Source of the DNA: Cornus controversa
Taxonomy: Eukaryota; Streptophyta; Magnoliopsida; Cornales; Cornaceae
DNA length: 64,000 bases
Direction: 5' to 3'
NCBI GenBank assembly: GCA_026545225.1
Contig: CM048847.1
Location: 5,828,001 to 5,892,000, forward strand
Shown here: positions 5,250 to 48,173 of the stretch, in pieces
Position numbering within the stretch: position 1 is the stretch's first letter
Layout of the letters: the number at the start of each line of letters is the position of its first letter
Notes under the pieces: generated by a model
What the model was told of the DNA's origin: nothing
The model's database searches: none
The model's input: the letters and a program-made list of their open reading frames with translations, nothing else
Translations under genes and position numbers: made by a program

Positions 5250-6260
5250 TAAATCCACCCAAGCTCAAACGTGAGCTACCAATCCAATCAGCCGAGCTCC
5301 AACCTCAGCCGACCTCACCGCCGTGAGACCACCTTAGCAGCACCAATAGCCACCTCCCTGCGATGACCCAGCCAATACCAACCCGGAACCAAACACAGCC
5401 CAAACAAGCCGTGCGCACCATCCTTGGGCCATCCGAAGCCAACCCAACACGACCCACCGCCGAGCCTCTGTCGGTCGTCGATCGGAGCTCCAAGTCGGAC
5501 CACCATACACGGCCGAGCAGCCTAAACGATCGAGCTCAGTCGAGTCCCATCGGCGTCTGAACCTTTGGCCGAACCAGCGAACCCAGTCCGTGCGCATCTC
5601 CTCCAACCCGCGAGCTCCACCGCCGGAGGGACCCATCGGCGACGCCTCTGCCGGAGACGGCTCCCGCCGCAGCTGCTGGGGCCGCCGGGACCGACCCCAT
5701 CCGCGGCCGTCGCGGCCTCCCTCTCTCTTTCCCCCAATCTCTTCCTCGGCTTCTCTCTCTCTCTCCCCGATCTCCTTTTTCTCTTCTTTTCTTTTCTTTT
5801 CTTTTTTCTTTCTTTTTCCTTTTCTTTTCTTCTTTTCTCTTTTCTTTCTTCTTTTCTTTCTCTCTTTTCTTCCTCTCTTCAGCCGAGACCACTAAGGTGG
5901 TCTTCCCTTTGGTTGACCACTCTTGGTCCACACATTATACATATATATTATATATATATATATATATATAATATACTACACCATACACAAAATACATGTA
6001 TTCTATGTATTTCCCCACACTTATATAAATACAAAGGCCCCTCCATCTTTATCCATAATCACATATTGACCCACCCTATATTTATAATTTAATATAAATA
6101 TAGGAACTATATATATATATATAGATATATATATACATATACTCACCTTCCACTTGTATGGAAATATATCCACACCCTTTCCGGAATCTAATTAATCCGA
6201 AAAAAATTTCAACAGGTCAAAATTCACCCGGAACCAGTCAAAATAATTCCGGTCCTTACA
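5250..6260 (-). repeat. 3' LTR of B (5' portion only)
   Basis: Matches 11876-12886 nearly base for base, including the pyrimidine-rich tract, the TA repeats and the terminal GGTCCTTACA (minus: TGTAAGGACC). It stops at 5250 where A inserted; the remainder should lie left of A, off the window. Confidence 0.9.
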
Positions 6261-8409
6261 ACCTCCCCTCCTTCAAGGAATTTCGTCCTCGAAATTAACA
6301 TAGTCATCGTCTTTCGAAAACCAATCCTTACCAGACGTCATTCTCGCCAATGATCGTCACTTTTCCTTTCCACATACCCTAGGCGCTACACTTGCAACAC
6401 CTAACTCATAACACTCAAGTCTTGCACAATAGTGCATTTCGACTTGCTTCCTAGAGTCCACAGTCTCTACCTCAAGACCTACCCAGTCCATCTCTATCTC
6501 TAGTCTAAGGTAACACCTTTGACTAATCATTCCAATCACTCACAGTGATACGTCCCCTATAATCCGGGATCATCAATACTCAAAGTCATTCTTTTATTAG
6601 CAAACATGACTTTCAATTTCTGGCATACCATTCCCGGGCTTAGTCCAATATCCTGGGCATCATCACAACACAAACCACATCAATCCAGTGCATATCACAA
6701 GCGCACTCACCAGCAAGGCACATGACAGTGCACCCGCCGATCAAAACCATATAGCGGTGTACTTGCCGCAGCAAGCCACATAATCCTGCCCAGTCTCATA
6801 GACTACAACCCACTGGAATCCAATGCCAAGTCCAGGATCTCACATCTTACTGGTTTTACAATCTCGTTATTCAAGAGGAGATCCATTTCCCATTTTCATC
6901 TTTCACACCAAGGAACCAGTTGATAGTTAGAGAGAATTCCTTTCATATCAGCACTTCACTTTAGACAACCCTCACCAATGAAAGTTTGAGGTCACCTACA
7001 GTAGCCAAACAGCAGCCATACAGTGGCTGCAACCCACTGCGTCTACACGTCTACTGCGTCCACCTCTCCCCTTCACGGTAAGAAATTATCCTCATTTCAG
7101 ATACCATATGTCAGGATCCTCCTCCACTATCAACCCTTCGTTCTCTTAGCATCATATTCACACTATGATCCAACTGTATCAATCATGCGCGTATCACAGC
7201 ACACCACTGAGGTCAAGGCACATAAGGAGTGCACTTGTCAAAACAAATCATCCAGTCCTATCCATTTTTTGTGGACTACATTCCATTCCTTTCCAGCATC
7301 TCATTTGAGACCCAAGATCCTGACTGCTTCGTCTAGGACCCTACAAATCTTTCCATGCATCACCATTGCAATGATTACAACACAAATCTGAATCACCAAA
7401 CTCTTGGTTTGGGAAACTACAAGGTAAATCACACCTTTCCCAACAATTCCAGACTCATACTTTCAAAGTCTATCACTACATGTCTATTTCAACATCATAG
7501 TCCACTCGGGTTCAAACCTCTACCCAAGTTTACCAATTCTCAAAACCAGAACTCCTAGGTGACTACATGTCACTACTAGCCATGCAACGCAAAATGAACA
7601 CTAAAGTGCAATGCTCAGTTACATGAATCATATATACCACATAGCATATAACACACAACATGCTAATCAAATAAACACGCACCATGCATGATATGACATA
7701 TGATGCATAAATCAATATCCTAGCCCTCGGGCTAATACTAGGAAAATACCCCTGACCATACACGGTCCTGGTACCTCCTCTGCCTGAGCAAGCGTGTAAA
7801 ACACGGCCCAGTCCCCCTAGTATACACATACTAGAACACAAAATCTAGAGTGGTTCAAACCAACCTACTCTCATCCTCTATACTCATTGGTAAACACCTA
7901 CCAATCTATCCACATCTGTAGTCGAAGGTAGTATCCTTGACTATCTACACCAATCACTTTCAGTGACATATCCCTACTATTGGGAATTCTTTATCTGTCG
8001 TCATCTAGACGAAACAACTCAACGTCTACAAGAGCCGGCGTATTGTAAGAGAAACGCTAATCCAAGAAAAATGTCTGGCAAGGCCACTTTTCTCAGTTAG
8101 CCCAACTCCGGCAATATGCCTTCCTTGTATCCCATCTCAATCTCAATTGCCCCCCTCGGCAATACACTTGCCAACCTTGGCAAAAACAATTATCAACAAC
8201 ACATCATAAGCCCCTAAGTATCTCTAAGGACTTAAACGCTCGCAATATCCCTTGCGGCATCTATTCGTTGCTCACTAATGAGACTTAGTCACCAAATCAA
8301 AGGTCTAAACTCAATCAATTCTGGGAGTTATTACCAACCGAAACTAGTTTCACACACCAACACTTTGATCTTTCATTAGGATTGCTCAAACCGAGCAAGT
8401 CACTCCACT

Positions 8410-8717
8410 ACCGTCCATAGGTAATCAAACCTATCATCTAGACAACTATCACCCATTGCCTATCTCCAAACCACCACGTGATTTGACCATCCGTCCTTAG
8501 GTATTCGAACCTACGACTTTGATACCGTAGGTTTTCAAACCTAATGCTTTAACAGCAATCCAGAGTTCCTCAACCCTTACCCGTCGCCCCTAGGTATTCC
8601 AACCTAGTGCTCTCATAGCATTCTGGTATTAGGTACATAATCCAACCTTCTCAACCATACACATGATACGTCCATTCCCGTCGTCCCTAGGTATTCCAAC
8701 ATAGAGCTCTGATACCA
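8410..8717 (-). repeat. Leader repeats with primer-site-like motifs in B
   Basis: At least four degenerate units built from CCTAGGTATTCNAACCTA followed by a GCTCTGATACCA-like 12-mer. The unit next to the LTR holds the real primer site (minus TGGTATCAGAGC, 8717-8706), matching the 3' end of plant initiator tRNA-Met. Upstream copies (near 8505 and 8600-8635) are decayed. D has the same arrangement at 35860-36195. Confidence 0.72.
8706..8717 (-). promoter_or_regulatory. Primer binding site of B (tRNA-iMet)
   Basis: Minus-strand TGGTATCAGAGC, three bases from the LTR end (TGTCACGCCC on plus at 8721). It is complementary to the 3' end of initiator tRNA-Met, as in Tekay/Del-type elements. Confidence 0.85.
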
Positions 8718-8720
8718 TCC

Positions 8721-11700
8721 TGTCACGCCCCGATTCCCGAGGCCCGGAAACTGAGGTGTGAACCCCGTGAGATCACCCTCACGCTTTAACCACCACCTGA
8801 TCATGCAACCTCAATTTCCTATCATTTTTACAAAAATTGGGCATGACCCATTCTAAATAATCAGCTCCTGGCATGATATACCTGCTTTACAGTTTATATG
8901 GACACTTCTGGGCACGTGTCCCCCGAGCATTTCTACAACATGCATAATACAATCATGAATATACATGCCTCAGTCATTGAATGTCTGTATTAAATACATA
9001 CATCACATGAATAAATACAATTGAAGGAACTGAATCAATATAATCGCTTTATACATTTAACCCAAATGTAAAGTATCTATCTATCCACTACCCTGGACAT
9101 GCATCAGATTCTAAGGAATCTAGACACTACCTCTGCAACCGGTGCTGTCAGTCCCCTAACTAGCTCCGTACTCAGCAATACCTGCAAAACCTGGGAGGGG
9201 CTGAGCTCAAAGGCCCAACAAGGTATGTAGAACCATACTATCACCGCTGCAGCAGGTCGATCCTCACATATTCTCAAAAATATACATATGCACTTAAATA
9301 TATCACAATATTTAAGACCATGCCCCACCTAGCATGCATGAACCAATGATGTATATGGCTACTCTAGCACATATGAACATACAAAACCCACAACACATGA
9401 TTTTAGAAATCATTTTCAACATGCTTGAAAGCAGTAACCATTCCGCACCAATATGTATATAGAACATATATGTCAACACATTTACATAAACGATGTAAAT
9501 CAACTACCACATCTCCTACTCGTCAAGTAGCACATCACAAATGCAATAAAGATGCATTTAAATAGGAAAACATGCTTAACAGATAAACACATAAGCATAA
9601 AGGTATTTTTCACCTTCTACGGTCATAATCTGATACATAAGACAAGCATCAAAGCTTTCACATACTCTCACTCTCGTTCCTCATCCGATACCCCACATGA
9701 TTGGCCCACTCTGAGGATCATGTGACCTAGGACAACTCCGATAACCATCCTATGACCTGGACCACTCCGAAAGGTCATCCTACTCTGGGAATGTATAGGA
9801 TTGCCATTATGTGAGGGGACAGCTCTGAGGCTCACATTCATTGGACATACTCTGATTCCCAGGCTTTAAGCCTTAGCATGGCGGGTCCACTCCGAGGGCC
9901 ATACTTATTGGACATACTTTGATGGCAATATATTAGTTTGCCAAATTGTGAGGGGGCAACTCCGAAGCTCACAAACGTTGGACATACTCCGATTCTAGGC
10001 ATAAAGCCTTCGTATGGCGGGTCCACTCCGAGGGCTATACGCAGTGGATAGTTATACCACTTCTCGTGACACGGTTGGACCACTCCGAAGTCCCGTACAC
10101 CTCTTTTTGCGTTAATTTTCCCGCAACCTCCCATATATGCAATATGGATGCATACGTAATCAAGCATTCTATTTTATGCTATCCCAATGCACCAGCTAGT
10201 ATATAAGTACATAACATGCATTTCCCTCTACATAAACCCACATATAACCACGTATGTGTCATTTCCCTCCTATACATGCAATATGGATGCATATATATAC
10301 AGCATAGTACATTCATGCTTCAACCCATGCTTATGAATACTAAAAAGAAGTATTTGGCATGCTTTTCATCACATTCCAACACATATAGCACATATATGTT
10401 CAAAACCCGCATAAAACCTCTTATATGCAAACAACTTCAACTTAACACATTTTTATCATGCTATAACCAATGCATGCATTCAATATATATATATATATAT
10501 GAAGCTAGCACGCATCTCACATTCACATTCCCACATATAAACACATATATGTCCAATCTTGCATATAAGTCCTATATGCACGTACACTAGCAAAAGTACA
10601 GTCATGCTCTCATTCAATGCATGTATTCACTACAAGTAGCTAACATGTATTCCAATCACAATATATATACACACATATATATTACGTCACCCACATATGT
10701 ATCAAGAACATATAAAGCACTTAGCACATTTCATGCTTTTTAAATACTCGCCAAAAGTTAAATTCAAACTTAGCATGCATATCTACTGCTGCAACCATAT
10801 ATATAATCACCTATATATATACTGAACCTCATGCATAAAATCCACATATGCATACAAGACAACATATAGCTAAACATGTATTATTTAGCGTACTCTTCAT
10901 AGACTTTAATCTATACATACATGCATATCACAATGCAATTAGGCGATAAATCTAACATGTTATCGCTTCCCAAACCCGCACATACATATATATACACACA
11001 CACATATGTATATCCTCTCACGTCCCATGTATGTACCACATTCCCTATACACATATATATATAAGCGCCTACATATATATGTATATACACATACCACATA
11101 TGATTAAATTGAGACATATGTAAATTACTCAACATACATAAAATATTTATATGAGATAGAGGCAAGAATCAACTTGCCTTAGGTCCCGCTTTAACGGTGC
11201 CCGCGCCTGCAAAGCGGTCCAGACCCAATCTCGATCCAGTCCTGTGTCGAAATCCACTCAAACGATCCTTCGGGCCACTTCGTCTCCATTTTAGTTTCCA
11301 TGCTTGACCCAATTTAATTAGGCAAGCCCAATTACATTTCTTCGCAGCCCACACTGCAAGGCTTACTTTCCAAAGTCCAATCTAATCAAATTGAGGCCCG
11401 ATTTACATTAACCAAACTCAAAAGTAGTCAATGTAATCCATCCCAATAATAGTTTAGTGGCAGCCCATTCTCATGTGAACCCACAAGCAAATCACCAACA
11501 AGAATCCAACACAAGGACCCCTCGGCTGCACATCACCAAGCCTCCACCGTCAACAAAATTAACCAAAGCCCAAACTGTGACCATCCCCGTCACCAAAGTA
11601 GGCTGTCCGAACAGCCGTGAGAATGCCACCATCGGCCACTTCAAGCCACCATTATCTAAACAGGATAGAACCCACAGACCAGCCACAATAAGCTCCACAA

Positions 11701-21664: not shown

Positions 21665-21669
21665 ACAAC

Positions 21670-23189
21670 TGATAAGTAATGAATATTGCATATTCAGTAT
21701 CCCTAAATTATATGAATTAGTGTCTTAGTAATATTTCTTTAATATTTTTATTAATAATTTTATAATTCCAGGTGATGAAGGGTAATTCTGATTAATAATG
21801 GTGAAATCGGGCTACAAATGGTACTCATTTAGTTATCATTGAAGCTTAACCCATGAGAGATATTTTTATCTTGAAGATCCAAACTAAATGGACTGAAGAA
21901 ATGGGCTGCAAATAAATGTAAATGAAGGAAAGGAGCACGGGCCCATTCGCATTGAAGATTGGGCCAATTCAGGCCTAAAAAGTCCTGGACCCGTGTTGGT
22001 ATTCAGACCATAACTCCGTACACGATTGTCAAAATGACCCAAACTCCATGTGGGTTGAAGGAAATTCAATTCTGCACAATTTCATATTTCACGAAAATTT
22101 TCTAAAACGGACGTTTTCATCAACTTTCTGCCCTATTTGCGCAGCTGCCACTTTTTGGGCGCAAATGCCACTTTGTGAGGAGCAAGTGCCATTTTCTTAT
22201 GCGCACTTGCCACTTTGGGAAGGCCAGGTGTCCCATCGGTTTGGTTTTGCAAATTAAAAATGATGAAACGAAGGAAATTAGGGTATTCTGGAGGGGGGAA
22301 GTAGAGAGAGATACACAGAGGCGATTCGTGACGATACGGGCAAGACGACGACGACTTCATCATCGTTCAAGCCTGGACCTCCGATCATGAGTGGCTAAAC
22401 ACCATTCCGGGGAAGTGATGTAACCCTAACCTGTCTTTCAATGTTTTAGTTTGTATATTAATTTGAGGATTATTTATTTTATGCATTGATTGTATAACCG
22501 AGACATAAAAAATAGCTGTGCTATTGCTTTCAATTTGAATGTATTGTTTCATTGCATATTTACTTTTGTTCTTGTAGAATGAATGCAAGTTTGCAGTGGT
22601 TAGGGTTTAGTTCTTTTCAATTTATGTGATTTTTTTAAGATAGGTTATACAATAGTTTTCATAGATCATTCAATTTAGGATTTTTATAATTCGTACTAAG
22701 CGAAGATGGGTTATCATATCATTAGTTAGTCTGATGTATAGGCCATGCTATGCGAAGACGAGTTATGCTTAATTGTATGTTGAATGAATCCTCTTGATAG
22801 AACTGAATTTGGCTTGTAGCCATTCTTTTCTGAATGCATAGATTAAACATCCCAAATTAATATCACTGTCATTGTCAGAAGGTTAGTGGTGAAGTCAATT
22901 TCCAGGACCCTCTCTCCAGTGTCTACCATTTATTTATGTTGTATTTCATTTCATTTAATTTCAGCACCTTAGAATTAAAACCAAATCAAATTCTCTTTCA
23001 ATTAAATTAGACAAGATCTGGATAGCTTAACAACACAACCAATGCAGTCTCTGTGTGTTCGACCCCTACTCACCACTTTACTAATTCTAGTAGAGTATTT
23101 GTAGGGTTTTATAAATCCTTTTTTTGTCGAGGTGTAAAACAACAACGACATTATTCCATATTATTTTATCACGTTTTGCACGTCGAACA
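21670..23189 (+). repeat. LTR1 of element C
   Basis: A 1520-base LTR, start TGATAAGTAATGAATATTGC, end CACGTCGAACA. It is directly followed by the primer site, so it is the 5' LTR. The phrase GCCACTTTnTGGGCGCA.. and several tandem variants of GTGCCACTTT lie near 22145-22220. Confidence 0.9.
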
Positions 23190-23192
23190 AAA

Positions 23193-23210
23193 TGGCGCCG
23201 TTGTCGGGGA
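23193..23210 (+). promoter_or_regulatory. Primer binding site of C (tRNA-Asp)
   Basis: TGGCGCCGTTGTCGGGGA, three bases after the LTR, matches the 3' end of plant tRNA-Asp with one difference. Athila-type and many Tat-type elements use this primer. Confidence 0.85.
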
Positions 23211-23499
23211 CTGCGGTCATGATTGTGTTGTTATGTTTAAAGATTAAGTCTTGTTTAATTATAATTTAGGACTTGTATATATTCTATTTTTAATTTGTTT
23301 TAGGTGTTTTGTGTGTTTGAATATAGGTACAAGAGTTACTACAGAAGTGGAAAGAAGTTGAAATTTCAGGACCTCTTGTGAGTTTTTGTATTTTAATTCA
23401 TGCACTTATGATTAGGGTTGTTAGTTTCTTTTAATTTTGAATTTTATTTTTATTTATTTATTTATTTATTTTTGTTTTTTTTTTTTTTTTTTTTTAAAC

Positions 23500-24327
23500 A
23501 TGTCATTTGAGTATGAGTATCCTTCGGAGGCATGTTTTGATCAAGTTGGTTGTGATGTGGATTTTGGATATCAAAATTCAAAGGATTTGTCCACCCAATT
23601 GGATGAATTATCATGGAAGTTGGAACAATTTATGAACGTTGGTCATGTTCCTACTCCTACTTACTTTTCCAAACCACATGAGTTCTGTGTATGTTGCTAT
23701 AGTCCTTATCATCATGTGAGAGATTGTCCTATTACGGGACAATGTTCTAATCTTTCTCATGGACAAACAAATATAAATTTCTCTATACCGGGGAATGACT
23801 CTTATTCAAATACTTATAACCCGGGATTTGAGGACAAAGTTTTGGCTACACTTGGCAAACTTGAGGAACGAATTAGCAACCTTGAGGAACAAACTAATTT
23901 GTTAAATTCACATTCGTAATCTATAGCTAGGCTAGAAGTTCAAATTGAGCAGATAACCAATGCTTTGAATTGTGAAGATCAAGAGGAACTTCCAAGTCAG
24001 CCCGTGACTAATATTGAACTCACACAACCAATTGAGTTAGACCATGCCCCCTTTGTGGAACCATTACTCATACCGGACTCCAAAAATTTACATGAAGAAC
24101 TTAAGTGTGATCACTTAAGTCATAATGAGAGTCCACCTTTTACCTTTGTTTTTGACTTGAGTAGTCACAAATTAGATATCAATGAGAAAATTAGTCAAGA
24201 ACAAGTTAAAGGGTCATGTTTTCCTGAATTAGTCGAATTTTATTCGATTGATTCATTTTTCTTAAAACCTCACATTGATATAGATAAGAGGTGCCTAAAT
24301 TGTTTGGATTCCGGCACAAGAAAGTGA
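23500..24327 (+). pseudogene. Gag-like ORF with one CCHC zinc knuckle (fossil)
   Basis: A frame starts MSFEYEYPSE just after a long T run and carries a CX2CX4HX4C knuckle at residues 63-76 (CVCCYSPYHHVRDC), then a likely coiled coil (LGKLEERISNLEEQTNLL). The region continues to 24327 as an acidic stretch rich in E, D and P with no known motif. No capsid domain, protease or RT is visible. Such gag-only, pol-less LTR elements are known in plants (TR-GAG type). The knuckle suggests RNA binding; a role as packaging adaptor is inference. The region is broken by about one break. Confidence 0.65.
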
Positions 24328-25155
24328 GGACAAAATAGGGGGGACACTTTTAGAGCTCCTCAAGAGATGTGGTATAGGGTGAACCTTCCATCAAAAGTAG
24401 TAGTTAGGAAGTGTGTGTTTTTCTTTTCATTTATTTTTATTTATTTTTGCTTTTGTTTGAGTTAATTTTTCTTTGTTTTAATTATTATTTGTGTTTGTTT
24501 TTCATTTTGTTGCATTCTTTTTTATTTTATTTTTTTATTATTTTTTTTTCTTTTAATATGCGTGGTGTGTAGTTGCATTTTTTATGACAGGTTCTTGCAT
24601 CCAAGTTTGGGGGGATGGCCAACCCTTATTCATGTGAATGCTTTGCCAAATTTTTACATTTCTACCACTACGGTAATATTGTTCTATCACTTACCATACG
24701 CTTTATATTTTTGTTACACATTGAGGACAATGTGTGATTTAAGTTTGGGGTTAAGGAAGAACACTTTTGTTTGTTTATTTATTTATTTATTTATTTTAGG
24801 TTGTTTTGTTTTCAGTTTAAACGTTTTAATACCAATCAAGAGTTTAATACTTTATGTAGGTTCTTGACTTGCAATTGTAGTGTATGTGTAAAATTTCTAG
24901 AAACTATGGTTTGAATGCAGTGGGTTAAGTCGTTATTTGCATTGACATGACTTGGAGTGGTTGACTCTAGTTCTTTTCACAATTCACACGCACACTAGTA
25001 GAGTTAGTGGGGTTTGTACTTGGCTTTGAGTATCAATTATGTGTGCTGAATATAAGTCGGTATCCCTTGAGAATAAACATTTTAAACATGCTATACTTAA
25101 AAAATATATATATAATAAAATAAAAAAATAAAAAAATAAAAAATAATAATAATCC

Positions 25156-25468
25156 TATGGTTTGTGGCCGTTTTGATTCGAGTTATTAGGTCCCTCGAGG
25201 TATCTTGAAACCTGGTGCCCTAAAGCCATTTGGTTTGGGAGTCACAGGCTGAAAGCTCACTACATGGACCAATTCGAAAGCCTAATAAACCTAGGCATTG
25301 CGTTATTGGTTAGTCTATGGTTTGTGGCTGTTTTGATTCGAGTTATTAGGTCCCTCGAGGTATCTTGAAACCTGGTGCCCTAAAGCCATTTGGTTTGGGA
25401 GTCACAGGCTGAAAGCTCGCTACATGGATCAATTCGAAAGCCTAATAAACCTGGGCATTGCACAACCA
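25156..25468 (+). repeat. 160-bp tandem duplication in C
   Basis: Two nearly identical units starting at 25156 and 25316. Each contains CCTGGTGCCCTAAAGCC and TGGTTTGGGAGTC (25211-25243 and 25371-25403), a block also present once in P (50233-50265) and J (60858-60889). Confidence 0.9.
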
Positions 25469-25470
25469 TA

Positions 25471-25508
<38 letters not shown>

Positions 25509-25956
25509 AATTGCATGTGTTCATGTTTTGAGTGATACATTTAATAAGGGGATCCAATAAATTGAAGGGACTTATAATTGCTCACTCAGGGTCGGGTTAA
25601 ACCACACTGATGAATGCTATTTCACTTTTCACGAGGGGGCTAGAGTTGGTTTCTCTGAGTTGTGTTGTTGTAAATTTTGTATGAGAATCATTGTTTCGAA
25701 TTATGGGATTTAGGGATTTGAAAGTATTCTTGAATGCAAGTCTTTTAACTACATTTTGTAGTTTTCGTCTTGATTAATGTTTGAAACAGAAATTTTGGCA
25801 TGTTTGTGGGTAACATCTCTGGAAACCCTCACGAGACTTTACTCGTCCACTCGGGGTAACCTAGGGGTTTAAAAGGCTTGTTGCATATGCTAAATGCAAT
25901 CGGATCTCCCACGAAAGAGGAAATAGTTTAGTGTTTTACTTCATTTTTAGTTTTGT

Positions 25957-25993
25957 ATTGCTAAGAGACTAGCAATTTGTAAGTTTGGGGGTG
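25957..25993 (+). promoter_or_regulatory. Hairpin plus polypurine tract of C
   Basis: ATTGCTA-AGAGAC-TAGCAAT forms a 7-bp perfect stem at 25957-25976, four bases before AAGTTTGGGGGTG, which abuts the TG of LTR2. The same stem occurs at the same place in P and J. Confidence 0.85.
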
Positions 25994-27478
25994 TGATAAG
26001 TAATGAATATTGCATATTCAGTATCCCTAAATTATATGAATTAGTGTCTTAGTAATATTTCTTTAATGTTTTTATTAATAATTTTATAATTCCAGGTGAT
26101 GAAGGGTAATTCTGATTAATAATGGTGAAATCGGGCTACAAATGGTACTCATTTAGTTATCATTGAAGCTTGACCCATGAGAGATATTTTTATCTTGAAG
26201 ATCCAAACTAAATGGACTGAAGAAATGGGCTGCAAATAAATGTAAATGAAGGAAAGGAGCACGGGCCCATTCGCATTGAAGATTGGGCCAATTCAGGCCT
26301 AAAAAGTCCTGGACCCGTGTTGGTATTCAGACCATAACTCTGTACACGATTGTCAAAATGACCCAAACTTCGTGTGGGTTGAAGGAAATTCAATTCTGCA
26401 CAATTTCATATTTCACGAAAATTTCCTAAAACGGACGTTTTCAACAACTTTCTGCCCTATTTGCGCAGCTGCCACTTTTTGTGAGGAGCAAGTGCCATTT
26501 TCTTATGCGCACTTGCCACTTTGGGAAGGCCAGGTGTCCCGTGAGTTTGGTTTTGCAAAGTAAAAATGATGAAACGAAGGAAATTAGGGTATTCTGGAGG
26601 GGGGAAGCAGAGAGAGATACACAGAGGCGATTCGTGACGATACGGGCAAGACGACGGCGACTTCATCATCGTTCAAGCCTGGACCTCTGATCATGAGTGG
26701 CTAAACACCATTCCGGGTAAGTGATGTAACCCTAACCTGTCTTTCAATGTTTTAGTTTGTATATTAATTTGGGAATAATTTACTTTGTGCATTGATTGTA
26801 TAATCGAGACATAAACAACAGCTGTGCCTATAGTTTTAAATTGAATAGATTATTTCATTACATATTTAATTTTGTTCTTGTAGAATGAATGCAAGTTTGC
26901 AGTGATTAGGGTTTAGTTCTTTTCAACTTCTGTGATTTTGTTAAGACAGGTTATACAATAGTTTTCACATATCATTCAATTTAGAGTTTTTATAATTCGT
27001 ACTAAGCGAAGATGGGTTATCATATCATTAGTTAGTCTGATGTATAGGCCATGCTAAGCGAAGACGAGTTATGCTTAATTGTATGTTGAATGAATCCTCT
27101 TGATAGAACTGAATTTGGCTTGTAGCCATTCTTTTCTGAATGCATAGATTAAACGTCCCAAATTAGTACAACTGTCATTGTCAGAAGGTTAGTGGTGAAG
27201 TCAATTCCCAGGACCCTCTATCTCCAGTATCCATCATTTATTTATGTTATTTAATTTCATCAACTTGATTTAAAAACAAAACAAATTCTCTTTCAATTAA
27301 ATTAGACAAGATCTTGATAGCTTCACAACGAAACCAATGCAGTCTCTATGGGTTCGACCCCTACTCATCACTTTACTAATTTTAGTAGAGTATTTGTAAG
27401 GTTGTATAAATTCTTTTTTTTTTGTCGAGGTGTAAAACAACGACATTATTCCATATTATTTTATCTCGTTTTGCACGT
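25994..27478 (+). repeat. LTR2 of element C
   Basis: About 1.49 kb, starts TGATAAGTAATG directly after the polypurine tract and stops a few bases short of the usual LTR end, where it joins mid-LTR sequence. It differs from LTR1 by a few per cent. Confidence 0.88.
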
Positions 27479-27479
27479 T

Positions 27480-28612
27480 AAAGGAAATTCAATTCTGCAC
27501 AATTTCATATTTCATAAAAATTTCCTAAAACGGACGTTTTCATCAACTTTCTGCCTTATTTGCACAACTGCCACTTTTTGGGCGCAAATGCCGCTTTGTG
27601 AGGAGCAAGTGCCATTTTCTTATGCGCACTTGCCACATTGGGAAGGCCAGGTGTCCCGTGGGTTTGGTTTTGCAAAGTAAAAATGATGAAACGAAGGAAA
27701 CTAGGGTATTCTGGAGGGGGGAAGCAGAGAGAGATATACAGAGGCGATTCGTGACGATACGGGCAAGACGACGGTGACTTCATCATCGTTCAAGCCTGGA
27801 CCTCCGATCATGAGTGGCTAAACACCATTCCGGGGAAGTGATGTAACCCTAACCTATCTTTCAATGTTTTAGTTTGTATATTAATTTAAGGATTATTTAT
27901 TTTATGCATTGATTGTATAACCGAGACATAAACAATAGTTGTGCTATTGCTTTCAATTTGAATGTATTGTTTAATTGCATATTTACTTTTGTTCTTGTAG
28001 AATGAATGCAAGTTTGCAGTGATTAGGGTTTAGTTCTTTTCAATTTCTGTGATTTTGTTAAGATAGGTTATACAATAGTTTTCATAGATCATTCAATTTA
28101 GGATTTTTATAATTCGTACTAAGCGAAGATGGGTTATCATATCATTAGTTAGTCTGATGTATAGGCCATGCTAAGCGAAGACGAGTTATGCTTAATTGTA
28201 TGTTGAATGAATCCTCTTGATAGAACTGAATTTGGCTTGTAGCCATTCTTTTCCGAAGGCATAGATTAAACGTCCCAAATTAGTACAACTGTCATTGTCA
28301 GAAGGTTAGTGGTGAAGTCAATTTCCAGGACCCTCTCTCCAGTGTCTACCATTTATTTATGTTGTATTTCATTTCATTTAATTTCGGCACCTTAGAATTA
28401 AAACCAAAACAAATTCTCTTTCAATTAAATTAGACAAGATCTGGATAGCTTAACAACACAACCAATGCAGTCTCTGTGGGTTCGACCCCTACTCACCACT
28501 TTACTAATTCTAGTAGAGTATTTGTAGGGTTTTATAAATCCTTTTTTTGTCGAGGTGTAAAACAACAACGACATTATTCCATATTATTTTATCACGTTTT
28601 GCATGTCGAACA
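27480..28612 (+). repeat. Partial LTR of C, plus strand
   Basis: About 1.13 kb matching LTR1 from its middle (GGAAATTCAATTCTGC) to the end (CATGTCGAACA). Its tail variants match LTR1 rather than LTR2. A few bases after its end the inverted LTR begins. Confidence 0.88.
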
Positions 28613-28613
28613 A

Positions 28614-29971
28614 AATTGGTTTCGTTGTTAAGCTATCAAGATCTTGTCTAATTTAATTGAAAGAGAATTTATTTTGTTTTTAAATCAAGTTGATGAAATT
28701 AAATAACATAAATAAATGATGGATACTGGAGATAGAGGGTCCTGGGAATTGAGTTCACCACTAATATTCTGACAATGATAGTTGTACTAATTTGGGACGT
28801 TTAATCTATGCATTCAGAAAAAAATGGCTACAAGCCAAATTCAGTTCTATCAAGAGGATTCATTCAACATACAATTAAGCATAACTCGTCTTCGCTTAGC
28901 ATGGCCTATACATCAGACTAACTAATGATATGATAACCCATCTTCGCTTAGTACGAATTATAAAAACTCTAAATTGAATGGTACGTGAAAACTATTGTAT
29001 AACCTGTCTTAACAAAATCACAGAAGTTGAAAAGAACTAAACCCTAATCACTGCAAACTTGCATTCATTCTACAAGAACAAAATTAAATATGTAATGAAA
29101 TAATCTATTCAATTTAAAACTAACAGCACAACTGTTGTTTATGTCTCGATTATACAATCAATGCACAAAGTAAATTATTCCCAAATTAATATACAACTAA
29201 AACATTGAAAGACAGTTTAGGGTTACATCACTTCCCCGGAATGGTGTTTAGCCACTCATGATCGGAGGTCCAGGCTTGAACGATGATGAAGTCGCCGTCG
29301 TCTTGCCCGTATCGTCACGAATCGCCTCTGTGTATCTCTCTCTGCTTCCCCCCTCCAGAATACCCTAGTTTCCTTCATCATTTTTACTTTGCAAAACCAA
29401 ACCCACGGGACACCTAGCCTTCCCAAAGTGGCAAGTGCGCATAAGAAAATGGCACTTGCTCCTCACAAAGTGGCATTTGCGCCCAAAAAGTGGCAGCTGC
29501 GCAAATAGGGCAGAAAGTTGATGAAAACGTCTGTTTTAGGAAATTTTCGTGAAATATGAAATTGTGCAGAATTGAATTTCCTTCAACCCTCACGGAGTTT
29601 GGGTCATTTTGACAATCGGGTACGGAGTTATGGTCTGAATACCAACACGGGTCCAGGACTTTTTAGGCCTGAATTGGCCCAATCTTCAATGCGAATGGGC
29701 CCGTGCTCCTTTCCTTCATTTACATTTATTTGTAGCCCATTTCTTCTGTCCATTTAGTTTGGATCTTCAAGATAAAAATATCTCTCATGGGTCAAGCTTC
29801 AATGATAACTAAATGAGTACCATTTGTAGCCCGATTTCACCATTATTAATCAGAATTACCCTTCATCACCTGGAATTATAAAATTATTAATAAAAACATT
29901 AAAGAAATATTACTAAGACACTAATTCATATAATTTAGGGATATTGAATATGCAATATTCATTACTTATCA
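28614..29971 (-). repeat. Inverted terminal LTR of C
   Basis: About 1.36 kb matching LTR2 in reverse; its LTR start (TGATAAGT on minus) is at 29971 directly at the ACAAC duplication, while its LTR 3' end is missing at the inner junction (near 28614). Confidence 0.9.
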
Positions 29972-29976
29972 ACAAC

Positions 29977-45820: not shown

Positions 45821-46872
45821 CATGACCACCGTATTCCACCACATCTCAGCCCACCGAAGCTGCCACTAGCCAGCACCTACAGCCGAGCCAACCACCAACC
45901 AGTCGAGAGACCCACCATTTCATCCTTTAGTCGAACCACCTTAGACCACCATTCCAGTTGTTGAACCCAAGTCCACCATGAATAACCATCCTCAAGTCAC
46001 ACCAAACACAACCCATAACAACCGAGTACCTAGCTCGTGGAACCACCTTGTTGCCGCCATTCATGGCCGTACCCAGCTACGGCACAACAACCTTGCTCCA
46101 TTTTTAGCGTCAACAAACTCACCGCCATTGAAGACCCATTGCTAGGAACCTCCAAGCTCACCAAAACTGTGACCCTCTTTCCCTTCCTCCGCCGAACCAC
46201 CTCACAACCGCAGTCGGAGCTCACCAAAATAGACCCAACACAGTCTGAGCATCATCACTTTCATCCTCTCAGTTTCTCTCTCTAGAAACACTCTCTCTCT
46301 AGACTTCACTCTTTCTCTCTCTACTTTCTTCTATTTCTCTCTCTCAAGCTCTCGATCTCTCTTCTTCTTCTTTCCTTTTCTTCTTTTCTTTTTTTCTTTT
46401 TTCTCTCAGCAGAACCACTCACTTGGTCTCTTTTTTTTATTTTGAATCATCATTCTTTCCTTCTGCTGTACACCACTCATTCACACCAACCAAAAATTGG
46501 TCCACATGTTCTATATATACTTATATACATACACAAAATACCCACATGTACATAAATACATCTCTCTCTACACATGCATAACTACATACACGTATTTCCA
46601 TATATTATAACTACATACTAATATATCCACTATACATATATATATATATATACACTCTCCATGATATATATATAATCTCATTTCTATATATATACCTACA
46701 TCCTCTAGCTATATATACATAAATTCATATATGTATATACACACACCATCTATCTATATATATATATATATATATATATATCCACACATATTTAAAATTA
46801 ATTAATTAAAAAGAAAGAAACCCGATCTAAATTTTTTTTTCGAAACCGGTCAAAAATAACCCGGTCCTTACA
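45821..46872 (-). repeat. Element N: 5' portion of a D/B-family LTR
   Basis: Minus strand from 46872 (TGTAAGGACC): TA-rich DNA, purine tract (complement of 46330-46410), then GC-rich sequence, stopping at M. No primer or polypurine tract is next to it. It was inserted into the C-type LTR O at GTGCCATTTTC. Confidence 0.78.
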
Positions 46873-47887
46873 GGTGCCATTTTCTTATGCGCACTTGCCA
46901 CTTTCGGAGGCCAGGTGTCCTGTGTGTGTTTTCTTCACAAAGATAAAGGGGATAAAAGGAGAAAACTAGGTATTCTGGAGGGGAGAAACATAGGGAGAGA
47001 TATACAAAGGTGATTCGTGACGATACGGGCAAGAAGATGGCGATTTCATCATTGTTCAAGCCTGGACCTTCGATCATGAGTGGCTAAACACCATTCCGAG
47101 GAAGTGATGTAACCCTAACCTGTATTTCAATGTTTTAATTTGTATATTAATTTGGGAATGATTTAATTAGTGCATTGATTGTATAACCAAGACATAAACA
47201 ACAGCTGTACTGTTTGTTTGAATTTTAATAGATTATTTCATTGCATATTTATTCTTATTCTTGTTCTTGTAGAATGAATTCAAATTTGCAATGATTAGGG
47301 CTTGGTTCTTTTCAACTTCTGTGATTTTGTTAAGACTAGTTATACAATAGTTTTTATATATCATTCAATTTAGAATTTTGATAATTCATACTAAGCGAAG
47401 ATGGGCTATTATATCATTAGTTAGTCAGATGTATAGGCCATGCTAAGTGAAGATGAGTTATGCTTAATTGAATGTTGAACGAATCCTCTTCATATAATTG
47501 AATTGGGGCTTGTACCCATTCTTTTCTGAATGCATAGATTAAACATTCCAAATTAGTACAATTGTCATTGTCAGAAGGTTAGCGGGGAAGTCAATTGCCA
47601 GGACCCTCTCTCCATAGTCTATCATTTATTTATGTTATTATTTCATGTTATTTAATTTCAACACCTTAGAATTAAAAAAACAAAACAAATTCCCTTTGAA
47701 TTAAAATAGACAAGATCTTGATAGCTTAACAACAAAACTAACGCAGTCTCTGTGGGTTCGACCCCTACTCATCCCTTTACTAATTTTAGTAGAGTATTTG
47801 TAGGTTTTTATAAATTCTCTTTTGTCGAAGTGTAAAACAACAACGACACTAATATATAATATTTTATCGTGTTTTGCACATCGAACA
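46873..47887 (+). repeat. Element O: 3' portion of a C-type LTR
   Basis: About 1.0 kb, more diverged from LTR1 than the LTRs of C are from one another, ending CACATCGAACA. No primer site follows, so it is a solo or 3' LTR. Its left part is missing beyond N. Confidence 0.82.
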
Positions 47888-48173
47888 ATAACCAATATCA
47901 GATTTAAAGACTGACTTTAAAGACCAATAAACAAAGCTTAAAGACTTTGCCGCTGCTCAAGACATCAAACTGACTCAACTATCACTATGTATAGTCCAAG
48001 TATTGCGATACTTTGGATACTTTGGTTATGGGAAGCGTAAGTTGGGATTGAGAGTGAAAAAGTTATGAGATTTGGTGAGAGTGGTTCAGGCTTAGGGAGG
48101 CTATGAATTGGGTGAGTGCTGGAGCGACTATGTTGTGAGTCGGGTGAGTGAGAGAGTGATTGAGAGAATTACT
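47888..48173. other. Unassigned stretch between LTR O and the LTR of P
   Basis: 286 bases that match nothing else in the window. No ORF, hairpin or repeat stands out beyond AAAGACTGACTTTAAAGACC near 47906. It may be older host DNA or part of an element not otherwise seen here. Confidence 0.5.

Follow-up and report, generated by a model that had tools for sequence, protein, structure and literature searches.

An 8302-bp block in the genome of Cornus controversa lies between the two copies of a 5-bp target-site duplication, and each of its outer ends is the start of a long terminal repeat (LTR), the right-hand LTR being inverted. The block contains four LTR pieces that have a single source of unique 3′ (U3) sequence (LTR positions 1-796) and two types of downstream repeat and unique 5′ (R-U5) sequence, referred to here as the tail. 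We consider it probable that strand-transfer errors, or end joining, among complementary DNAs (cDNAs) of two parent copies yielded a rearranged cDNA, which was then integrated by two U3 ends. The block was found in a 64,000-nt stretch of assembly GCA_026545225.1 (772 Mb in 61 contigs), contig CM048847.1, positions 5,828,001-5,892,000 of the forward strand (C3:5828001-5892000). This stretch is called the window, and positions are window positions unless a chromosome or the LTR is named. The case is known at one locus, from the genome assembly alone.

Structure of the block and its target site

The block, its target site, and its pieces are as follows; LTR1, LTR2, L3, and L4 denote the four LTR pieces, and A and B denote the two tail types.

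21665..21669: left target-site duplication ACAAC, single copy in the unfilled site
21670..23189, plus strand: LTR1, full, 1520 bp, A-type tail
23190..25993, plus strand: internal region
25994..27478, plus strand: LTR2, without its last 6 nt, B-type tail
27477..27479: junction 1, LTR2 to LTR position 387, 2-bp overlap GT
27479..28612, plus strand: partial LTR (L3), LTR positions 387-1520, A-type tail
28612-28616: junction 2, AAA(T), the spacer found between an LTR and the primer-binding site, followed by the inverted LTR, 2-bp overlap AT
about 28615..29971, minus strand: inverted LTR (L4), LTR positions about 1372 back to 1, B-type tail, outer end the U3 end
29972..29976: right target-site duplication ACAAC
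6665..6669: the single ACAAC of the unfilled site, in a homologous copy of the host repeat

The block spans positions 21670-29971 between perfect copies of ACAAC. It begins with TGATAAGT, an LTR start, and ends with ACTTATCA, an inverted LTR start, and both termini coincide exactly with the first base of the LTR. Based on the composition of the flanks and on the flanks' own 5-mers, a 5-of-5 match would arise by chance with a probability of 0.0015. The host of the block is another repeat. When joined without the block, the flanks align to positions 6442-7056 with 564/616 identical positions, and one ACAAC is present there. A 29-base string taken from this empty site had 741 matches genome-wide at ≤3 mismatches, counting the window's own copy, and the reversed control had none.

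Alignment of the four LTR copies, proposed in an earlier sequence-only reading of this DNA as a way to map junctions and microhomology, located about 2 bp of shared sequence at each inner junction (GT at 27478/27479 and AT at 28612-28616). LTR2 halts 6 nt before the terminal CA, and L3 includes the complete LTR end and a further AAA(T), reaching about 3 nt beyond the CA before it meets the inverted L4. The processed CA end that integrase leaves is found at neither inner junction. With an L022-like template spacer (AAT before TGG), the match at junction 2 could be ATTGG, and L3 would then reach 3 nt into the primer-binding site. The same reading had proposed a genome search for other copies of the composite, in which the exact string of each junction was found once. 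Near-matches to junction 1 (≤3 mismatches) occurred at 3 places genome-wide, the two others being family LTR sequence; junction 2 likewise had 3 (≤2 mismatches), and the two others have no similarity to the LTR or the internal region. The sequence-only reading had described a full, a near-full, a 1.1-kb partial, and a truncated inverted LTR joined with little or no homology, ACAAC on both sides of an 8.3-kb block, outer termini that are both LTR starts with the right one inverted, and an empty site kept in a homologous region. The mapping of the pieces, the block ends, and the unfilled site bear out this description.

Private substitutions number 16, 7, 15, and 11 in LTR1, LTR2, L3, and L4, respectively, and an equal age of the pieces fits these counts (p = 0.25). 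At a substitution rate of 1.3 × 10−8 per site per year, the age of the insertion would be roughly on the scale of a million years. LTR2 also carries an 18-bp deletion that is private to it among the four pieces.

One U3 source and two tail types

Of the 949 alignment columns in which every piece is represented, 33 separate LTR1 and L3 from LTR2 and L4. All 33 are located at LTR positions 797-1367 and none at 387-796, and their clustering after the 25 other variable columns has P = 2.2 × 10−7 under shuffled labels. From tail sequence, the sequence-only reading had paired LTR1 with the partial LTR and LTR2 with the inverted LTR; this pairing holds from LTR position 797 onward and fails before it. 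In the unselected comparison of LTR1 with LTR2, 15/778 U3 sites and 56/702 tail sites differ, and LTR1 differs from the inverted LTR by 2.3% in U3 and 9.6% in the tail. For five normal two-LTR elements analyzed as controls, the tail differences were 4/712, 1/709, 15/695, 24/703, and 0/716, and the U3 differences, in the same order, were 1/805, 8/805, 39/805, 37/805, and 1/806.

Trees were built from 31 LTRs for the whole U3 and from 32 LTRs for positions 387-796 and for the tail, with 28 LTRs from 23 loci as relatives. LTR1, LTR2, and L4 fall into one clade in the whole-U3 tree (support 0.981), as do all four pieces in the tree of positions 387-796 (0.887). In the tail tree, LTR1 pairs with L3 (0.936) and LTR2 with L4 (0.993), and a B group with a support of 1.000 includes the latter pair and excludes the former. 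By distance, the tails of LTR1 and L3 are nearest to those of relatives L017, L018, and L040-L043 (3.1-3.6%).

A scan of LTR positions 500 to 1520 identified 22 columns that separate the A and B clades, and because all of them are at 797 or beyond, they suggest that the U3/R border is near LTR position 797. Typing was also carried out for 20 LTRs from 15 of 20 fetched loci at 41 columns picked where LTR1 and LTR2 differ, so that the 41/41 difference between these two is by construction. Three normal elements agree throughout between their own LTRs, and L029 and L030 differ at 797 only, gaps aside; column 797 alone is therefore unreliable. The typing left out L027, L028, L031, L032, and L033, whose LTR matches end at position 1246 (another tail), and the second LTRs of L015, L019, and L026, which are damaged or partial.

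The parent of the shared U3 was sought among the same relatives. Over the whole U3, the pieces are 4.1-4.4% from L022 and 5.3-8.8% from A-lineage copies, which points to a B parent. Eight columns at LTR positions 682-781 separate the A clade from L022/L025; at seven of them, every piece with a base has the A state, and at the eighth (682), all pieces except LTR1 have it. An assignment of the U3 to RNA B was dropped, since the tree of positions 387-796 and these A-clade states conflict with it. Within the internal region, positions 201-800 are 2.1-7.0% from the A-lineage copy L018 and 10.2-22.3% from L016, L019, L029, L034, and, where aligned, L030. The internal region is thus A-like at 201-800, and its 3′ half is less clearly assigned. 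A mosaic interior was considered as clean proof of two parents and dropped because positions 2201-2400 conflict with it.

Formation of the block and alternative explanations

We infer that one particle may have held the RNAs of two related copies, A and B, and that the steps may have followed the order given here. The minus strong-stop DNAs (R-U5) of both types would have been extended onto one and the same U3, which would explain the presence of one U3 with two tails. According to excerpts of PMC3187697, it is established that retroviral minus-strand transfer goes to the same or to a co-packaged RNA. The main cDNA would thereby have become LTR1(A)-internal-LTR2(B). The A-type L3 and the inverted B-type L4 would have been joined to its right end, either by aberrant strand transfer near the boundary between U5 and the primer-binding site or by end joining, so that L4 supplied a genuine U3 terminus, and integrase would have inserted the molecule by its two U3 ends, cutting the target with its customary 5-bp stagger. 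L3 and L4 look like strong-stop DNAs, because L3 ends at about the minus-strand start and L4 exactly at the plus-strand start. It is possible, if somewhat short of probable, that the block is the fossil of a single virus-like particle, in which a two-RNA main cDNA and both plus-strand strong-stop DNAs (A as L3 and B as L4) were fused where a copy of the primer-binding site mis-annealed to an LTR. The sequence-only reading had proposed that integrase accepted a rearranged cDNA, possibly from two parents, by way of both LTR starts. This proposal draws support from the target-site duplication, the unfilled site, and the disagreement between U3 and tail, and less clean support from the internal region. 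Template switching, one of the two routes that reading offered, stays a possible source of the rearranged cDNA.

A second inverted joint is present at C10:10777722-10783077 (L035+L038+L039, offsets 6223-11578), where an LTR is fused to an inverted LTR and an inverted internal region. The joint consists of a full LTR, AAA, 5 nt of the primer-binding site (TGGCG), and then an inverted LTR entered at position 1483; the two sides share CGTTG (a 5-bp match). On its right, the locus is cut short within the internal region, and an approximately 190-bp copy of the left flank follows (188/195 identical, including TGAT, which also starts the LTR). The C10 locus supports the inverted joint, but not the U3/U3 insertion.

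Several observations weigh against the reading of a two-parent cDNA integrated by two U3 ends. The C10 locus has no U3 right end, and U3/U3 insertion is therefore seen once. The tree and column evidence on whether the U3 parent was A or B conflicts, with L022 near the pieces in the whole-U3 tree, yet away from them in the tree of positions 387-796. The placement of the U3/R border at 797 comes from the columns themselves, and it is weakened by the somewhat conserved stretch at 650-796, which is 6.1% from an outgroup LTR compared to 7.8-8.8% further on. Some columns break the tail pattern: 609 and 847 group LTR1 and LTR2 against L3 and L4, and L3 has the B state at 1180 and 1191. The branches placing LTR1 and L3 near L017, L018, and L040-L043 are weak (0.217-0.824), the link of LTR2 and L4 to L022/L025 has a support of 0.682, and the relatives were chosen by similarity from a family with a total of 1089 LTR starts. 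In the internal region, positions 1601-2200 are 1.0-3.0% from L015, L016, L022, and L026, but L034 is equally near (2.0-3.0%), and positions 2201-2400 are 5.5-9.8% from L015, L016, and L022 versus 2.2-2.3% from L020, L033, and L034.

End joining of cDNA fragments, which the sequence-only reading had not named, remains a rival to strand transfer. Host enzymes would have ligated the main cDNA, an A-type right-end fragment, and a reversed B-type left-end fragment before integration via two U3 ends. The microhomology of about 2 bp at each junction and the trimming of LTR2 by 6 nt are consistent with this route, L3 stops no more than about 1 nt from where an unprocessed cDNA is predicted to end (LTR plus AAA), and hosts are known to form 2-LTR circles by end joining of retroviral DNA (excerpts of PMC3148978). 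However, three molecules and two internal breaks would be needed in one cell, and the C10 joint enters the primer-binding site (TGGCG, with CGTTG shared), which fits priming better than blunt joining. We regard this route as somewhat unlikely.

An assembly error joining near-identical copies would be conceivable in a family with 1089 LTR starts, for a structure known from an assembly alone, but L3 and L4 carry 15 and 11 private substitutions, respectively, the mark of local copies that have aged, and the nearest other tails among the scored matches are 97% (A) and 95% (B) identical. The exact joints occur nowhere else in the genome and the duplication matches at both ends, leaving such an error improbable. 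Two insertions at one ACAAC, one normal and one inverted, followed by deletions, would draw on the nested insertions that occur in the family (e.g., C1:42501932). They would require the same 5-bp target twice and at least two deletions, leave the same-orientation L3 unexplained, and conflict with the common U3 source of the pieces; we consider this history very improbable.

Self-integration, in which integrase inserts a cDNA end into its own molecule or into a second cDNA and the product then integrates, was the other route offered by the sequence-only reading. Excerpts of PMC3148978 describe autointegration as yielding internally rearranged retroviral DNA, with joints that begin at integrase-processed 3′ ends and products that are circular. 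Because processed ends and circles are thus expected, whereas LTR2 stops 6 nt short of the CA and L3 extends about 3 nt past it, self-integration is unsupported and highly improbable. Inversion or gene conversion within a normal insertion deserves as little credence: inverted LTR arrangements do arise without a duplication (L033, with U5/U5 outer ends), but recombination between inverted LTRs preserves the outer ends and would make no U5-to-U3 change beside ACAAC, and the tail types differ.

The element, related loci, and known systems

The remaining parts of the element are as follows.

23193..23210, plus strand: primer-binding site TGGCGCCGTTGTCGGGGA, 3 nt (AAA) after LTR1, with a similar context in 8 relatives
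23500..23919, plus strand: gag-like open reading frame (ORF), counted from its ATG, in which a CX2CX4HX4C spacing was recognized by eye
25984..25993, plus strand: polypurine tract TTTGGGGGTG, just before LTR2

The block thus has the marks of an LTR retrotransposon, namely TG...CA LTRs, a primer-binding site, a polypurine tract, and a 5-bp target duplication. The LTR of the family has the form TGATAAGT...CGAACA. Normal elements with these LTR ends and 5-bp duplications include L016 (GACAT), L022 (CCAGC), and L034 (TCACC); the LTR L025 has GCAAG on both sides and ends in CGAAAA. In the 8 relatives, the primer-binding site is preceded by AAA (6), AAT (L022), or AAAA (L018). We take TGGCGCCGTTGTCGGGGA to match a tRNA and, from the resemblance of this site, presume that the element probably belongs to the Ty3/gypsy superfamily. 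The block contains four ORFs of at least 80 amino acids, the longest of 160. Two of the four were scanned, the longest from its ATG only (139 amino acids), and had no match to a Pfam family; the gag-like ORF had no Pfam match, and the scanned ORFs revealed no reverse transcriptase or integrase that would assign a superfamily. From its coding content, the element looks non-autonomous. The gag-like ORF had no relative among the viral contigs searched. The internal region also contains a 147-bp direct repeat (97%; 25155-25301 and 25315-25461), both copies of which are matched by relatives. Elsewhere in the window, a related LTR (46871-47888, 86% identical) has a good 3′ end and no match to the first 513 positions.

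Other outward U3/U3 pairs within 12 kb were looked for by eye among 100 listed LTR starts (exact matches on C1, of the 1089 counted), and none was found (0/100); this reading misses partner starts with mismatches, such as the inverted start at C1:42504325, and says little about frequency. Two look-alikes were set aside. At C1:42496000-42509999, an arrangement that appeared palindrome-like at first is an inverted LTR into which a solo LTR (C1:42501932-42504325), flanked by a separate AACCT duplication, has inserted. L033 592-5734 (C4:28731790-28736932) comprises an inverted LTR, an internal region, and a direct LTR, with U5 ends outward and no duplication (ACTAT versus ATCAT). Further arrangements were seen in the genome: three LTR tails about 3733 bp apart at C4:34187118-34196018, each accompanied, at a distance of about 250 bp, by a partial tail in inverted orientation (a tandemly repeated inverted arrangement); five LTR tails at a spacing of about 4102 bp at C9:12553854-12570985, probably a tandem multimer of the family; and two LTR-start matches (about 80% identical), close together in the same orientation, at L011 1114-2631 (C10:15491450-15492967).

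The closest known systems are the plant template-switching complexes, which have one 5-bp duplication and extra LTRs and are attributed to the co-packaging of RNAs and to strand switching of an abnormal kind (Sabot and Schulman 2007, PMC1950507). The block shares with them the flanking 5-bp duplication, with a single-copy unfilled site, around an insertion with additional LTRs. Those complexes have three LTRs, two internal regions, and highly similar outer LTRs, and the main text describes no inverted LTR in a complex; in contrast, the block combines four LTR pieces of two tail types with a single internal region, its right-terminal LTR is inverted, and both of its ends are U3 ends. It functions as a template-switching complex does, yet departs from two defining features, having one internal region instead of two complete ones with an internal shared LTR, and outer LTRs that are 9.6% apart in the tail instead of highly similar. 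Tandem LTR-retrotransposon insertions are also multi-LTR structures, some with a 5-nt duplication, but excerpts of PMC11899658 present them as head-to-tail LTR/internal arrays, describe no inverted LTR, and leave insertion versus later recombination undecided. Aberrant human immunodeficiency virus and avian retroviral integrations, as excerpted from PMC5041404, resemble the block in that viral ends are linked to additional viral DNA, which may have either orientation. They usually have one normal end and another apparently joined by the host, with long host duplications or deletions, whereas the block has an exact 5-bp duplication, no long host duplication or deletion, and exact LTR starts at both termini. 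The C10 locus, with a long host duplication at one end, is closer to this class than the block is. Autointegration products share rearranged cDNA with the block, and inverted segments are cited for them, but they are circular and come from integrase-processed ends (excerpts of PMC3148978); the inner joints of the block have no processed CA end. Among titles and abstract openings of the open-licence literature, no plant insertion was found that has both a duplication and an inverted LTR at its end. Three features were not found in print in that literature and are apparently new: the inverted LTR at the terminus, the pairing of U3 with U3 at the ends, and the record left by two tail types.

Aberrant strand transfers usually leave no trace, and here the two tail types act as natural markers that make co-packaging and strand transfer in a plant retrotransposon legible in genomic DNA. 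With LTR arms of about 1.35 kb in inverted orientation around 1.1 kb, the block could give rise to a hairpin RNA directed against the family. Since two U3 ends occur with a normal duplication, the block suggests that integrase does not require one U3 and one U5 end. If the block is indeed the fossil of one particle, a plant retrotransposon integrase would be able to pair two U3 ends in vivo.

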